Source of the DNA: Fibrobacter sp. UWB16
GTDB taxonomy: Bacteria > Fibrobacterota > Fibrobacteria > Fibrobacterales > Fibrobacteraceae
NCBI RefSeq assembly: GCF_900215325.1
Contig: NZ_OCMS01000003.1
Span: 434,001-498,000 of the forward strand
DNA length: 64,000 bases
Direction of reading: 5' to 3'
Numbering within the stretch: position 1 is the first letter of the stretch; every line of letters starts with the position of its first letter. The position numbers and the translations under genes are program-made. Positions 5,367-47,513 of the stretch are shown piece after piece. The notes below the pieces were generated by a model that did no database searches, was not told where the DNA came from, and saw nothing but the letters and a program-made list of their open reading frames with translations.

Positions 5367-5482
5367 ATAATTTTAAAAACGGAACGTAAGAAAATTATAA
5401 CTTCTTTGGGGTTGTTGCTCATAATCACTGTTTTTGAGGTTTTATTAGACCAAATTGTAGTATTCAAAATTAATCGGTATTG

Positions 5483-5511
5483 CAATATATATAAAAATTG
5501 TATATATATTG
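5483..5511. promoter_or_regulatory. A/T-rich inverted repeat upstream of the SBP-type hybrid kinase
   Basis: CAATATATATA (5483-5493) is matched by TATATATATTG (5501-5511) across a 7-base spacer, 31 bases before the kinase start at 5543. Possible operator or promoter-melting element. The 190-base gap between divergent genes holds nothing else recognisable. Confidence 0.3.
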
Positions 5512-5542
5512 TAATATAAATGTAATAAGCTTAGGCGGGCTA

Positions 5543-13525: not shown

Positions 13526-16500
13526 ATGTTTCGTGAAGTAAAGAAAGAAGAGACCTTCCCGCAGATCGAAGAGCGCGTGCTCGGATTGTGGGACAAGGAC
13601 GAAAGTTTCAAGAAGTCGCTTGACAGCCGTCCGGAAACCGAACCGTACACATTCTATGATGGCCCTCCGTTTGCAACGGGCCTTCCGCACTACGGTCACT
13701 TGCTTGCCGGTACCATCAAGGATATCGTTCCGCGTTACTGGACCATGAAGGGCAAGAAGGTTCCGCGTGGTTTCGGTTGGGACTGCCACGGACTTCCGAT
13801 TGAATCTCTCGTGCAGAACGAACTCGGTCTCGCTGGCGTTGCCGAAATCCAGAAGCTCGGTGTCGACAAGTTCAATGAAACTTGCCGCGGCAAGGTGCTC
13901 AAGTACACGAGCGAATGGAAGAAGACCGTTCGCCGCATGGGCCGCTGGGTGGACTTCGACAAGGGCTACAAGACCATGGACAAGAACTTCATGGAATCTG
14001 TGTGGTGGGTGTTCAAGCAGTGCTTCGACAAGGGTCTCATCTACCAGGGCTACCGCATCCAGCCGTACAGCCCGGCTCTCGCTACTCCGCTTTCGAACTT
14101 CGAAACGAACCAAGGCTATAAGGACCGTCAGGACCCGTCTCTGACGCTCATCTTCCCGCTTAACACGGACGAAGCCAAGTTCAAGGACACGAGCATCCTC
14201 GTGTGGACGACTACCCCGTGGACGTTGTACTCCAACTTCTGCATCGTTGTGGGCCCGGACATGGACTACAACCTGGTGGAACAGGACGGAAAGAAGTACT
14301 GGATTGCCGCAAGCCGTACCGCCGCCTACTTCAAGAACCCGAACATCGTGGATACCTGCAAGGGGTCCGAACTCGTGGGCAAGGACTACGAACCGCTTTC
14401 CCGCATTTCCGATGCATTCGTGACGCCGGACCAGCTGTCCCGCCACTACAAGATTTACCCCGCCGACTACGTGAGTACCGAAGACGGTACCGGCGCCGTT
14501 CATACCGCTCCTTCCTTCGGTGAAGAAGACTTCCAGAAGGGTGCTGAACTCGACCTCGGCCTTTTTGACCCGCTCGATACCGAAGGCAAGTTCACGGACA
14601 AGGTCCCGATGTGGAAGGGCCTCGGTGCGAAGGAAGCCGACAAGGAAATTATCCGCTTCTTCAAGGAACAGGGCCGCGTGTTCAAGCAGGACGTGATTGT
14701 CCATAGCTACCCGCACTGCTGGCGTACCGGCGTTCCTCTGATTTACCGCGCCCTCAAGACGTGGTTCCTGAAGATTGACGCCCCTGTCACGAGCAAGGAC
14801 GGCGTGACCAAGACTCTGAAGGAATGGATGGTCGAAAACAACCAGACCGTGAACTGGGTGCCGGACCACATCAAGAATGGACGCTTTGGCAAGTGGCTCG
14901 AAGGCGCCCGCGACTGGAACCTTTCCCGTAACCGCTTCTGGGGTACGCCGATTCCGGTGTGGCTCAGCGACGATGGCGACATGATTGCCGTGGGCTCTAT
15001 CGAAGAATTGCAACAGCTCACCGGCGTGAAGCTCGACGACTTGCACAAGCACTTTGTGGACAAGCTCACGATTGAAAAGGACGGCAAGGTTTACCGCCGC
15101 ACGCCGGAAGTTTTCGACTGCTGGTTTGAATCCGGTTCTATGCCGTATGCAAGCCGCCATTACCCGTTTGAAAATAAGGAACTCGTGGAACGCAGCTTCC
15201 CGGCAGACTTCATTGCCGAAGGCCTTGACCAGACCCGCGGTTGGTTCTACACGCTGACGGTGCTTTCGAACGCTTTGTTCCAGAAGCCGGCATTCAAGAA
15301 CGTGATTGTGAACGGTATTATCTTGGCCGAAGACGGTTCCAAGATGAGTAAGTCCAAGCGCAACTACCCGGACCCCAACGACCTTATCGAACGCACGGGT
15401 GCCGACGCTATTCGCTTGTTCATGATCAACTCCGCTGCATTGAAGGCCGAAGACCTCCGCTTCAGTGAAGAAGGCGTGAAGGGCATCGTGAAGCAGGTGA
15501 TGTTGCCGCTCTGGAACGCTGTTGCATTCTTTGTCTCGAACCACAATGCTGACGCCGCCAAGGGCCAGCTCACGTGGAAGCCGGGTCAGGAAGTGAAGAG
15601 CGACAATGAACTTGACCGCTGGATGCTTGCTACGCTGCAGGATCTCGCTGCCAAGGTCGAAGTGGAAATGAAGGCTTATCGCCTGTACAACGTGGTGCCC
15701 GCCGTGATTGCCGCAGTCGATGACCTTACGAACTGGTACGTGCGCCGTAGCCGTCGTCGTTTCTGGAAGTCCGAAAACGATGGCGACAAGAACGCCGCCT
15801 ACGCAACCATGTACAAGGTGCTCGTAGACTTCTCCAAGATTCTCGCTCCGTTCCTCCCGCTCCTCGCCGAAGAAATCTACCAGATTCTCGTTCGCGAAGT
15901 CGATGCCAACGCTCCGGTGAGCGTGCACCTCTGCGAATTCCCCAGCGCCGACAAGTCCCTCATGGACGAAAAGCTCGTGGAACGCATCGCCATGGTGCGT
16001 GGCATGGTCGAAATGGGCCGTGTGATTCGTGCAACGAACAACGTAAAGAACCGTATGCCGATTGCTAGCATGACGGTGGTTGCTCACGGCACCGAAGAAA
16101 AGAATGTTGCTGAAACGATGAAGGACTTGATCCTCGAAGAACTCAACGTTCGCGAAATGAAGTTCCTCGAAGATGAGACGAAGCTCGTGAAACTCTCCGC
16201 TAAGCCGAACTTCCTTGCTATCAAGGCGAAGGGTCCGGATTACGCGAAGAACATGAAGGTGATTTCCGCTAAGCTGAATTCGTTGAGCGTCGATGAAATC
16301 AAGGCTCTGCAGAATGGTGAAACCATCAAGTTCGACTTTGGTGAAGTCGGTGCCGACTGCCTGATGCTCAACCGCATCGTGGCCGACGGTATGGCTGTGG
16401 AAGCCAACCAGCACTTCACCGTGGCTCTGGACTTGAAGATTACGGACGAACTCCGCCGCGCCTGCGTGGCCCGCGAACTCGTGAACCGCATCCAGAACCG

Positions 16501-16711
16501 CCGTAAGGACCAGAACTACGCCATCACCGACAAGATCGAAGTGACGCTGTTCTCTGCAAGTGACGTCTTCAAGCAGGCTGTTGCGGAGAACGAGGCTTAC
16601 ATCGCCGGAGAGACGCAAGCTGTGAAGATTGCTTGGGCTGCCGCTGCCGATGGCCTCGAAGCCAACGATGCCGACGGGGAAGCATTTAGCTTCACGACGG
16701 TCCGCGCTTAA
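13526..16711 (+). CDS. ileS: Isoleucyl-tRNA synthetase, type 2 (eukaryote-like)
   Basis: 1061 residues, the length expected for the larger IleRS2 class. The class I HIGH motif appears as GLPHYGHLL near residue 50, with the family pattern GWDCHGLPIE soon after. The KMSKS loop is DGSKMSKSKRNYPDP near residue 610. A long insertion between them is the editing domain, and the C-terminal third is the anticodon-binding region. The phrase GLPHYGHLLAGTIKDIVPRYW is typical of IleRS2; IleRS1 has a different HIGH context (IHIGHAL). IleRS2 enzymes are generally less sensitive to mupirocin; resistance here is inferred. Codon choice is so biased that the opposite strand carries a gene-length open frame. Confidence 0.96.
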   Translation: MFREVKKEETFPQIEERVLGLWDKDESFKKSLDSRPETEPYTFYDGPPFATGLPHYGHLLAGTIKDIVPRYWTMKGKKVPRGFGWDCHGLPIESLVQNELGLAGVAEIQKLGVDKFNETCRGKVLKYTSEWKKTVRRMGRWVDFDKGYKTMDKNFMESVWWVFKQCFDKGLIYQGYRIQPYSPALATPLSNFETNQGYKDRQDPSLTLIFPLNTDEAKFKDTSILVWTTTPWTLYSNFCIVVGPDMDYNLVEQDGKKYWIAASRTAAYFKNPNIVDTCKGSELVGKDYEPLSRISDAFVTPDQLSRHYKIYPADYVSTEDGTGAVHTAPSFGEEDFQKGAELDLGLFDPLDTEGKFTDKVPMWKGLGAKEADKEIIRFFKEQGRVFKQDVIVHSYPHCWRTGVPLIYRALKTWFLKIDAPVTSKDGVTKTLKEWMVENNQTVNWVPDHIKNGRFGKWLEGARDWNLSRNRFWGTPIPVWLSDDGDMIAVGSIEELQQLTGVKLDDLHKHFVDKLTIEKDGKVYRRTPEVFDCWFESGSMPYASRHYPFENKELVERSFPADFIAEGLDQTRGWFYTLTVLSNALFQKPAFKNVIVNGIILAEDGSKMSKSKRNYPDPNDLIERTGADAIRLFMINSAALKAEDLRFSEEGVKGIVKQVMLPLWNAVAFFVSNHNADAAKGQLTWKPGQEVKSDNELDRWMLATLQDLAAKVEVEMKAYRLYNVVPAVIAAVDDLTNWYVRRSRRRFWKSENDGDKNAAYATMYKVLVDFSKILAPFLPLLAEEIYQILVREVDANAPVSVHLCEFPSADKSLMDEKLVERIAMVRGMVEMGRVIRATNNVKNRMPIASMTVVAHGTEEKNVAETMKDLILEELNVREMKFLEDETKLVKLSAKPNFLAIKAKGPDYAKNMKVISAKLNSLSVDEIKALQNGETIKFDFGEVGADCLMLNRIVADGMAVEANQHFTVALDLKITDELRRACVARELVNRIQNRRKDQNYAITDKIEVTLFSASDVFKQAVAENEAYIAGETQAVKIAWAAAADGLEANDADGEAFSFTTVRA

Positions 16712-16733
16712 TAAGGCGAAAGTCACGCAATTT

Positions 16734-16768
16734 AAAAGAGACGTTCCAAACGGGGCGCCTCTTTTTTT
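16734..16768 (+). terminator. Terminator after ileS
   Basis: AAAGAG ... CTCTTT stem with a partly paired inner part, followed by seven T residues, 22 bases after the ileS stop. Confidence 0.65.
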
Positions 16769-16792
16769 GTTCCTTTGTCTAGCAAAAATGAA

Positions 16793-17569
16793 TTAACCTT
16801 CCTCGAACTCCTTAAGCTTGAGCTCTTGGATCATTGTTTCTAGGTTGCCGTATTGCCCATCGCCGTGAAATTCGGCTCCGGGTTTCGGGTCTATTGTTTT
16901 GCCTTCGGCAATCTTCTTCTCGTATTCTACTTCGGCAAGTGCCCATTTGCTGATGAAATCTTTCGCGACAGTTTCGACATCTTCGGAAAGTCTGGTCTGT
17001 AGAAACCAGAAATACTTGCCGAAATTGCGGTTCGCAACGCGCGTTTCTTTTTTGCATTCGGGACAATACGATGTTGCTTGCGAGCCTCCTGAAAGCGGTG
17101 AACCTGTAAAGCTGCGGATAAGGGCGGTCCCGCCGCATGAACAGTCCACGCGGAACTGGTCGGTTTCCCAAATGCGGAGGAGCGTTGCTAACCTGAGGTT
17201 GACGGTAACGATGCTGCCTGCGATGCAGAATCGCCTTGAAGTCTGTAGTGGGCCCACGTAAAGACCGCCACCCTTGATGGCGTAGTGCACGTCGATATTT
17301 GCATACCGAGGTGATGCAAGAATTTCGTCCTTATGCCGCAAAATAAGGTCCAAATTGTCATAGAACAGCTTGCGCTTGCGTTCGAAGCTTTTTTTCTGGA
17401 TTTCGCGAATCTCGTCTTGTTCCTTTTTCTCCTGTTCCATTTCATCACTGATCAGCTTTAGGCCGTTCGATTGGCGTTTGAAGAAATCCAGGGCTGATTC
17501 GCGTCTGTTTTCCGATTCTTTTAAGAAGTTGGGGAATGGTTTTGTGTCGTCTATTCTGATGGTCGTCAT
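16793..17569 (-). CDS. Uncharacterised protein with zinc-ribbon-like cysteines
   Basis: 258 residues; I do not recognise the family. The N-terminal third is charged and helical, probably a coiled coil (about residues 40-75, rich in E, K and Q). A C-x-C pair (DCSCGG) near residue 142 and a C-x2-C pair (YCPECKKE) near residue 168 could form one zinc-binding ribbon. There is no signal peptide or membrane segment. AGGAGG lies seven bases before the ATG. It is divergent from the AlkD-like gene, with a perfect inverted repeat between them, so the two may share regulation. Function unknown. Confidence 0.7.
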   Translation of the reverse strand: MTTIRIDDTKPFPNFLKESENRRESALDFFKRQSNGLKLISDEMEQEKKEQDEIREIQKKSFERKRKLFYDNLDLILRHKDEILASPRYANIDVHYAIKGGGLYVGPLQTSRRFCIAGSIVTVNLRLATLLRIWETDQFRVDCSCGGTALIRSFTGSPLSGGSQATSYCPECKKETRVANRNFGKYFWFLQTRLSEDVETVAKDFISKWALAEVEYEKKIAEGKTIDPKPGAEFHGDGQYGNLETMIQELKLKEFEEG

Positions 17570-17601
17570 GGGAAGCCTCCTGCTAATGTAATCCTATTTT
17601 T

Positions 17602-17645
17602 TTTTAGATTTATGCATGTATGTGTATTTATGCATAAATCTAAAA
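17602..17645. promoter_or_regulatory. Perfect 16-bp inverted repeat between divergent genes
   Basis: TTTTAGATTTATGCAT (17602-17617) is matched exactly by ATGCATAAATCTAAAA (17630-17645) across a 12-base spacer. It lies 33 bases from one start codon (17569) and 74 from the other (17719), so it is in the promoter or leader of both genes. A bidirectional operator is the best guess; a terminator is unlikely between divergent starts. Confidence 0.6.
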
Positions 17646-17718
17646 CTTAATATACAAATATCGAGTGTCATAAAATGTCGTTTCAGAAAATTTTTATCTT
17701 GTGGTTCGAGGAGAATTT

Positions 17719-18417
17719 ATGTCTATCATCAACGAAATTCAAAAAGCACTTTTCGCAAAACAGGATTTGAAGTTCAAGGCTTTCCATAGCAAGCTGATCC
17801 CGACGACGGATGCAAAGACGATTATCGGCGTGCGCACTCCCGACTTGCGCGCCATTGCGAAGGAATATGCTAACCACTCCGATGTGGAAAAATTCTTGAC
17901 CACGCTCCCGCACAAGTATTACGACGAAAATCAAATCCATGCGTTTATTTTGTCTCTAATCAAGGATTATGATGATTGCGTGTCGCACATCGATGCGTTC
18001 TTGCCGTATGTGGATAACTGGGCAACTTGCGACCAGATGCGCCCGAAAGTTTTTGCAAAGGCCGCGAACCGCAAGCGACTTTTGAAAGATGTTGAACGTT
18101 GGATGAGTGCTCCCGTGACGGACGTTTACACTGTCCGCTTTGGTATCGAAACTTTGATGTCGTTCTTTTTAGACGATGACTTTGACCCGAAATTTTTGAA
18201 ATGGGTTTCGAAAATCCGCAGTGGGGAATATTATCTCAACATGATGGTCGCGTGGTTCTTTGCGACTGCGCTTGCCAAGCAGTACGAGGCGACACTCCCG
18301 TTCATTGAAAAACATGTGCTCGATACATGGACGCATAACAAGACTATCCAGAAGGCGATTGAAAGCTATCGCATCACGGATGAGCAAAAAGCGTATCTGA
18401 AAACCTTAAAATTATAG
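17719..18417 (+). CDS. AlkD-like DNA alkylation repair protein
   Basis: 232 residues, close to the usual 230-240 of the AlkD family of HEAT-repeat DNA glycosylases, which remove alkylated bases. The family's DNA-contacting W-x3-D pair is visible as DNWATCDQM near residue 105, followed by RFGIETLM and VAWFFATA, which fit the conserved Arg and second Trp of AlkD. ATG 17719 has GAGGAG five bases upstream; a GTG at 17701 precedes the SD and is rejected. It is followed after 12 bases by an alpha/beta hydrolase gene, probably one transcript. Confidence 0.85.
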   Translation: MSIINEIQKALFAKQDLKFKAFHSKLIPTTDAKTIIGVRTPDLRAIAKEYANHSDVEKFLTTLPHKYYDENQIHAFILSLIKDYDDCVSHIDAFLPYVDNWATCDQMRPKVFAKAANRKRLLKDVERWMSAPVTDVYTVRFGIETLMSFFLDDDFDPKFLKWVSKIRSGEYYLNMMVAWFFATALAKQYEATLPFIEKHVLDTWTHNKTIQKAIESYRITDEQKAYLKTLKL

Positions 18418-18429
18418 TATCTTTAAAAT

Positions 18430-19239
18430 ATGATTGATTATACCGTACAGACCGTAAAAACTGACAATTTTGAAATGGACTACCTCAAGTTTGGCACAGG
18501 CGCGCGTACGCTCGTGTTGTTACCGGGGATGAGTCTCAAGAGTACGATGGGCCTTGCCTCGATGGTGGTGGATTCGTACAAGATATTCGCAGACGATTTT
18601 ACGGTCTACATGTTCGATCGCAAAAAGAATTTCGGTGAATCGTATCCGATGGAACAGATGGCGGCTGATACTGCCGAAGCGATGGATGCTCTTGGCATTG
18701 AATGCGCCTGCTTCATTGGAATTTCTCAGGGTGGCATGATTTCGCAAATCATTGCTGAACAATACCCGCAGAAGGTTGAACGCTTGGCGCTTGGTTGTAG
18801 TGCTGCTCGCTTGAACGATATGTCTCGCGCGGTGATGACGGAATGGAAACGCCTCGCCGAAGCTCGCGATATCGAAGCCCTTTGCTCGAATTTTATAGAT
18901 AAAGTTTTTTCTGCTGAAACAATCCGCAAGTACAAAAAGAGCCTGATGCGCATGAATACGAATGCGACCGAACAGGATATGGCTCGCTTCTGCGTACTTG
19001 CCTGCGCTTGCCTCGAATACGATGCTTTTGCAGGACTTGAAAAGCTCAAATGTCCGACGCTCGTTTTGGGTGCCGAACTCGACCAGGTCTTGGGCGTCAT
19101 CGCTTCTCGCGAAATTGCCGAAGTGCTCCAGAAAAATGGTGTGCCGACGGAACTCTACGTTTACGAGAACTACGGCCACGCAGCTTATGACGAAGCTCCG
19201 GATTACCGTGCAAGGATTTTGGAATTCTTGAAGGGGTAG
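18430..19239 (+). CDS. Alpha/beta-fold hydrolase
   Basis: 269 residues, cytoplasmic. The nucleophile elbow is GISQGG (Ser near residue 98), the acid is likely in LGAELDQVLG near residue 213, and the catalytic His is in NYGHAAYDE near residue 243. This is the triad order of alpha/beta hydrolases such as esterases, haloperoxidase-like enzymes and lactonases. The substrate is not predictable. It starts 12 bases after the AlkD-like gene. Confidence 0.82.
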   Translation: MIDYTVQTVKTDNFEMDYLKFGTGARTLVLLPGMSLKSTMGLASMVVDSYKIFADDFTVYMFDRKKNFGESYPMEQMAADTAEAMDALGIECACFIGISQGGMISQIIAEQYPQKVERLALGCSAARLNDMSRAVMTEWKRLAEARDIEALCSNFIDKVFSAETIRKYKKSLMRMNTNATEQDMARFCVLACACLEYDAFAGLEKLKCPTLVLGAELDQVLGVIASREIAEVLQKNGVPTELYVYENYGHAAYDEAPDYRARILEFLKG

Positions 19240-47470: not shown

Positions 47471-47513
47471 AAGACCGTAACTGATTCTCTCAGTTACGGT
47501 CTTGTTTTTTTTT
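47471..47513 (+). terminator. Strong terminator after cdsA
   Basis: Perfect 14-bp stem AAGACCGTAACTGA / TCAGTTACGGTCTT with loop TTCTC, then G and nine T residues. Confidence 0.95.

Follow-up and report, generated by a model that had tools for sequence, protein, structure and literature searches.

A palindromic motif upstream of an orphan gene as the putative operator of a SahR/SamR-like methionine and SAM-cycle regulon in Fibrobacter

The perfect inverted repeat that lies between an orphan gene and an alkD-like gene of Fibrobacter sp. UWB16 is very probably a switch for the methionine and methyl-donor genes of this genus of gut cellulose degraders, and the copy found in the window (the whole stretch of 64,000 nucleotides analysed here) is probably unrelated to the adjacent DNA-repair gene. 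Comparison of sequences across the genus makes it quite likely that the repeat is an operator of a SahR/SamR-like methionine/SAM regulon, bound by a protein that joins an ArsR domain to a methyltransferase domain, with the orphan gene as its regulated gene in the window and alkD as a bystander. This reading is carried by the motif, by the genes that stand downstream of it, by its tie to the orphan gene and by the link of the regulator family in relatives both to metH and to a SahR/SamR-type site, all of which can be seen directly. With respect to mechanism, we infer that a dimer of the protein with ArsR-type helix-turn-helix and methyltransferase domains would bind TTATGCAT-N12-ATGCATAA, that the bound operator would cover or abut the -10 region and block transcription, here of the minus-strand orphan gene, and that a SAM-cycle metabolite, by analogy S-adenosylhomocysteine, would alter binding of the regulator and lift the block.

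The inverted repeat and its recurrence at methionine-cycle genes

The repeat spans positions 17602-17645 and reads TTTTAGATTTATGCAT-GTATGTGTATTT-ATGCATAAATCTAAAA on the plus strand, that is, perfect 16-bp arms (17602-17617 and 17630-17645) around a 12-base spacer, set within the 149 bases that separate the ATG of the orphan gene on the minus strand (17569) from that of alkD (17719). Direct reading confirmed this arrangement as the initial annotation had described it, and a repeat search of the window extended the arms, imperfectly, to 23 nt. The accompanying claim that chance is an unlikely source also held: the window contains one perfect 16-bp inverted repeat whose spacer does not exceed 60 bases, and 60 shuffles of it that preserved dinucleotides gave none; when the 149-bp gap was shuffled 20,000 times, 36 of the products contained a perfect repeat of at least 12 bp. 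A search for the arm elsewhere in the genome, which the annotation had proposed, gave a divided answer. The 16-base arm has no second exact copy in the UWB16 genome, but a gapped 28-mer recurs that corresponds to the inner 28 bp of the repeat (17610-17637; TTATGCAT-N12-ATGCATAA). This conserved unit is the putative core operator, and the full perfect repeat consists of the core plus 8 paired bases on each side, neither feature being assigned to a strand. With a position weight matrix (PWM) built from 26 sites upstream of metK, metH, metF and ahcY only, the core scores 37.4, and the next-best position in the window (1.8) overlaps it. The repeat search returned two other sets of repeats in the window, namely overlapping AT-rich palindromes around TATTGCAATATATAT at 5461-5516 and a perfect 14-bp inverted repeat, AAGACCGTAACTGA, with a 5-base spacer at 47471-47503.

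Allowing up to two mismatches, the pattern TTATGCRT-N12-ATGCATAA finds a match in 60 of 61 Fibrobacter genomes, with 381 forward matches versus 72 for the reversed control pattern, part of the count in one genome (G065) being due to TTCTGCATTC-type repeats; 23 genomes from outside the genus showed no excess (47 forward versus 46 control matches). In UWB16, metF, metH, ahcY and metK each have a site upstream, and at metX the site spans the predicted start. The proteins encoded by these targets agree with curated models, MetH and AhcY having been scanned in pieces, and relatives carry sites at the same methionine-cycle genes. The methionine-gene rows of our alignment were selected because they bear a site; when genes were instead found by protein similarity, a site was present in 14 of 14 upstream regions of metK, metH, ahcY and metF from four genomes (G007, G015, G025 and G067). 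These 14 sites retain 12-15 of the 16 half-site bases, a count used because some of them belong to the PWM. Judged from this distribution, the 28-bp motif looks like the mark of a Fibrobacter regulon for the methionine/SAM cycle.

Several further matches deserve mention. A looser pattern gave 22 matches in the UWB16 genome versus 17 for its control, and since this barely exceeds the control, only AT-rich sites were read by eye. Sites also occur upstream of azlC in G003 and G076, the gene family having been checked in G003. The metX copy (L097:1501-1528) overlaps the predicted coding start (MHMSEYLHK) and may be kept by coding constraint; in G009, the motif at the metX start is retained without the regulator. 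A weaker copy, TTATGCAATAACTATATTTATTGCATAA, with a score of 19.9 (L111:2525-2552, equal to C2:628224-628251 of UWB16), stands 19 bases before a Band_7/SPFH gene, and the same string is also present in G014 and G073. The match at C5:64123, whose spacer is mixed and which extends over the start of a small ArsR gene, was judged to be due to chance.

The orphan gene, alkD and the position of the site

The probable regulated gene is an open reading frame of the minus strand (16793-17569) that encodes a 258-aa protein with zinc-ribbon-like CxCG and CPxC motifs, while the probable bystander is an alkD-like gene of the plus strand (17719-18417; DNA_alkylation family, Pfam PF08713, E 5e-14). Homologues of both were sought in 60 related genomes and were found in 21 for the orphan gene and in 37 for alkD. 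For 30 matches per gene, up to 250 bases of upstream sequence were scanned with the PWM at a threshold of 12, which was our own choice; the maximum over 1,200 shuffles was 4.5. A site was found upstream of 20 of the 30 orphan-gene homologues (scores 24-41; 0 of 600 shuffles). The 10 misses comprise four second copies right behind a first copy, two matches from a single out-of-genus genome, a weak match in G014, a second and distant copy in G006, the gene of G005 and one of two copies in G033. In a second set, made up of 24 contig loci and the window and drawn from genomes that partly overlap the first set, 24 of 25 rows carry the site, a Prevotellaceae locus (L241) having been left out of this count. 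Upstream of alkD, the motif was present at 2 of 30 loci, exactly those in which the orphan gene is the divergent neighbour. In five genomes (G006, G012, G026, G027 and G029) the motif accompanies a copy of the orphan gene and alkD lies elsewhere, without the motif; in G006, the distant second copy of the orphan gene, on the same strand as alkD and about 0.9 kb from it, has no site.

With respect to promoter geometry, which was assessed by eye, a -10-like hexamer of the orphan gene, TATATT, lies at 17649-17654 on the minus strand, just upstream of the operator, and TTGTATATT occupies the same -10 place in many homologous promoters. TATATT- or GATAAT-like hexamers are often found just outside the left half of the core at the orphan gene, metF, metH and metX, and at ahcY and metK the -10-like hexamer falls within the core and in the clearest cases follows a TTGAC-like one by 17 bases. 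These positions, as read from the sequence, fit repression by occlusion. A second conserved element, resembling TGACA-N4/5-TTTGTC, lies slightly upstream of the -10 hexamer (about 17657-17690, minus strand) and recurs in many orphan-gene promoters of the TTGTATATT type, including those of L219, L220, L223, L232 and L233; it was not noticed in the aligned metK, ahcY, metH and metF promoters, and it may be the site of a second regulator or a substitute for the -35 element.

Pairing beyond the core is a rarer property. All eight outer pairs on each side are found only in the window and in L217 among the 25 rows, L217 being the same contig as G001:C43, and the outer arms of the two differ by a compensated base pair. 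The ahcY site of G007 has six outer pairs, and TTTTAGAT stands unpaired to the left of the core in L221, L228 and L233. Template switching may have produced the right flank as a copy of the left one, which would account for the unusual perfection of the window copy; the compensated difference between the window and L217 is compatible with such copying and also with a hairpin.

The initial annotation had offered two readings of the repeat, a regulator shared by DNA repair and the orphan gene, or a hairpin in one leader. From the former, the operator-like character of the repeat survives and belongs with the orphan gene, and a sharing with alkD is not supported, because 28 of 30 alkD loci lack the motif and its other copies stand at methionine/SAM-cycle genes. 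Co-regulation of the two genes in a response to DNA alkylation is therefore very unlikely. In its favour, the divergent genes of UWB16 and G001 have the site between them, 81 bp upstream of alkD; against it, the position of the site suits the -10 hexamer of the minus strand. As to the annotation's question whether the repeat is absent from close relatives that keep both genes, the two were divergent neighbours only in UWB16 and G001, each of which has the repeat, and alkD may thus still be affected where they are so arranged. The hairpin, whether simple or part of a riboswitch at the 5′ end of the orphan-gene mRNA, is similarly improbable. The leader in the window does fold well (z -4.5), and the compensated pair of the outer arms would suit an RNA stem, but two homologous leaders fold weakly (z -2.3 and -2.2) and a third does not fold (+0.7), and every one of the four, the unfolded one included, retains the DNA motif. 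In addition, the spacer and half-sites are conserved letter by letter, the motif covers the -10 hexamer itself at ahcY and metK, and an Rfam search (cmscan, up to E 1) of positions 16500-18800 returned no riboswitch, its only hits being mir-9 and snR67, far under their cut-offs. Hardly credible is a mobile-element end or a chance repeat without function: the neighbourhood of the orphan gene does vary between species, but shuffling did not generate such repeats, the recurrence of the motif at one gene family and one pathway contradicts this explanation, and the orphan protein had no relative among the viral contigs, phages and plasmids searched.

The candidate regulator

Three genes of the UWB16 genome carry a PF01022 domain. 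The candidate regulator, a protein of 321 aa encoded at C1:385186-386148, combines an ArsR-type helix-turn-helix (PF01022, E 5e-12, residues 29-74) with a methyltransferase domain (PF08241, E 2.5e-21, residues 160-256), and the homologue in L243 has the same domain pair. Orthologues with at least 75% identity were found in 57 of 61 genomes of the genus (35 of 37 plus 22 of 24). In 9 of the 10 out-of-genus loci fetched, metH directly follows the gene of the homologue on the same strand, and ATC-N10-GAT stands in front of all 9 of these metH-linked homologues; a homologue in G037 is not linked to metH, and in the Fibrobacter loci read the regulator does not adjoin metH either. As its recognition helix, the regulator has HQSNASRHL in each of the 32 genus rows displayed (G003 appearing twice), and the nine metH-linked homologues have GQSTLSTQL or a near variant. 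In two genomes without an orthologue, G009 and G063, neither metH nor metK has an intact site (the best retain 9-10 of 16 bases), and their metK upstream regions resemble decayed sites. Both also carry a distant substitute ahcY (L214 in G009, L213 in G063) with 34-36% identity over the matched start and without a site.

This SahR/SamR-like protein is our best candidate for the regulator, because in 9 of 10 relatives its homologue is linked to metH and preceded by ATC-N10-GAT, and because regulator and intact sites are both absent in G009 and G063. Against this reading count the difference between the genus operator and the published palindromes, the lack of a site at its own gene (none of 20 genus upstream regions, taken as 350 bases at 20 of 30 loci, scores 12 or more), the mismatches between regulator and sites in G015, G067 and G064, the unlinked homologue of G037, the 10 of 30 orphan-gene misses and the fact that G009 and G063 look like sisters, which makes their co-loss one lineage or event at most. 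A different transcription factor might thus act on the same methionine-regulon operator, the ArsR-methyltransferase protein merely correlating with it, and the siteless promoter of the regulator and the sites of G015 and G067, where no regulator was detected, speak for this. We nevertheless regard it as unlikely, in view of the link to metH and ATC-N10-GAT in relatives and the joint absence of regulator and intact sites in G009 and G063, and because the genomes of G015 (74% complete) and G067 (71%) are incomplete. In the mirror-image case of G064 (70% complete), the regulator is present and no site matched, and none of the four query genes was found there.

The orphan protein and comparison with known systems

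The four cysteines of the CxC and CPxC motifs (143, 145, 169 and 172) are invariant in 23 sequences. Neither Pfam, PHROGs, NCBIfam nor PADLOC contains a family that the orphan protein matches with a credible score, and its sequence profile found nothing better than E 1.3 in the PDB. A zinc ribbon would have two CxxC-like knuckles within a small beta fold. The AlphaFold model (mean pLDDT 83) predicts two long helices that enclose a small, strand-rich part, with strands around CxC and CPxC, but gave no clear structural match; no PDB or BFVD structure matched at E 0.001 or below, and the best Z in VIA-align was 2.9. In the set searched, the family belongs to Fibrobacter; outside the genus, relatives came from G038, a genome of the same order, and from a single Prevotellaceae locus. 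The Prevotellaceae protein (L241:53-1309) has a radical-SAM domain, just under the Pfam cut-off (28.6 versus 29.5 bits, E 1.8e-6), followed by a domain like the orphan protein (31% identity over 110 columns), and its neighbour (1440-2507) is related to proteins near the orphan gene in L224, L225 and L227 (best E 1e-17, small database); we take this context as a weak lead rather than as a function. The orphan gene often lies in variable regions (L230, L235, L237 and others), sometimes as tandem copies, next to genes for RecC-, UvrD-, DnaB-, WYL- or AAA-like proteins. Some of its recurrent neighbours match models of the PADLOC defence library (10 proteins scanned), but RecC-, UvrD-, DnaB- and AAA-like proteins belong to generic families and we therefore claim no link to defence. 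Because most homologues appear to be members of the regulon, the 12-base spacing is kept and the L241 locus offers a radical-SAM protein and a shared neighbour, we suggest, as a tentative and somewhat doubtful possibility, that the orphan protein is an accessory of SAM-dependent chemistry, either as a free-standing partner of a radical-SAM-type enzyme or as the product of a gene induced when S-adenosylhomocysteine accumulates, under a methionine-cycle regulator with an operator re-specified in the genus.

If the proposed regulon is real, Fibrobacter gains, for the cycle of methionine and methyl donors, a candidate regulator, an operator and a list of genes, and an orphan family unnamed in the family and structure libraries searched gains its first functional clue, a metabolic signal. 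It would also provide a natural case of operator change between related lineages, from ATC-N10-GAT to TTATGCAT-N12-ATGCATAA, along with the recognition helix. Our search of open-access papers returned neither a methionine regulon of Fibrobacter nor such an operator.

In other bacteria, the same pathway is controlled by MetJ, whose met boxes are tandem AGACGTCT-like boxes, and by SAM/SAH riboswitches. The Fibrobacter site contains no tandem AGACGTCT-like boxes and, unlike these riboswitches, has no riboswitch match within 16500-18800. SahR carries a C-terminal methyltransferase domain. The 1023-bp length of sahR in Ensifer, as given in PMC8877191, fits an architecture of ArsR plus methyltransferase. 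According to PMC4239095, in which the name Fibrobacter does not occur, SahR is an SAH-responsive ArsR-family regulator of alpha-, delta- and some gamma-proteobacteria that binds a 20-bp palindrome, targets ahcY, metH, metF and metK and is described as autoregulated, and SamR of the Xanthomonadales has a 24-bp palindrome, ATC-N10-GAT being common to it and gamma-proteobacterial SahR. Like SahR, the Fibrobacter system combines a candidate ArsR-type regulator and a palindromic operator with sites at ahcY, metH, metF and metK; unlike SahR, it has a 28-bp operator instead of a 20-bp one, no site at the regulator gene (0 of 20), an orphan zinc-ribbon-like gene in the regulon and a home in another phylum. 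It resembles SamR in that a SahR-like regulator adjoins metH in 9 of 10 out-of-genus loci and methionine/SAM genes are targeted, and differs from it in the position of the regulator, away from metH in the Fibrobacter loci read, in the operator and in targeting ahcY. Because the published operator (20- or 24-bp, with ATC-N10-GAT) and self-regulation were looked for in the genus and neither was found, we do not assign the system to SahR proper; it looks like a SahR/SamR-like regulon with a longer, different operator.
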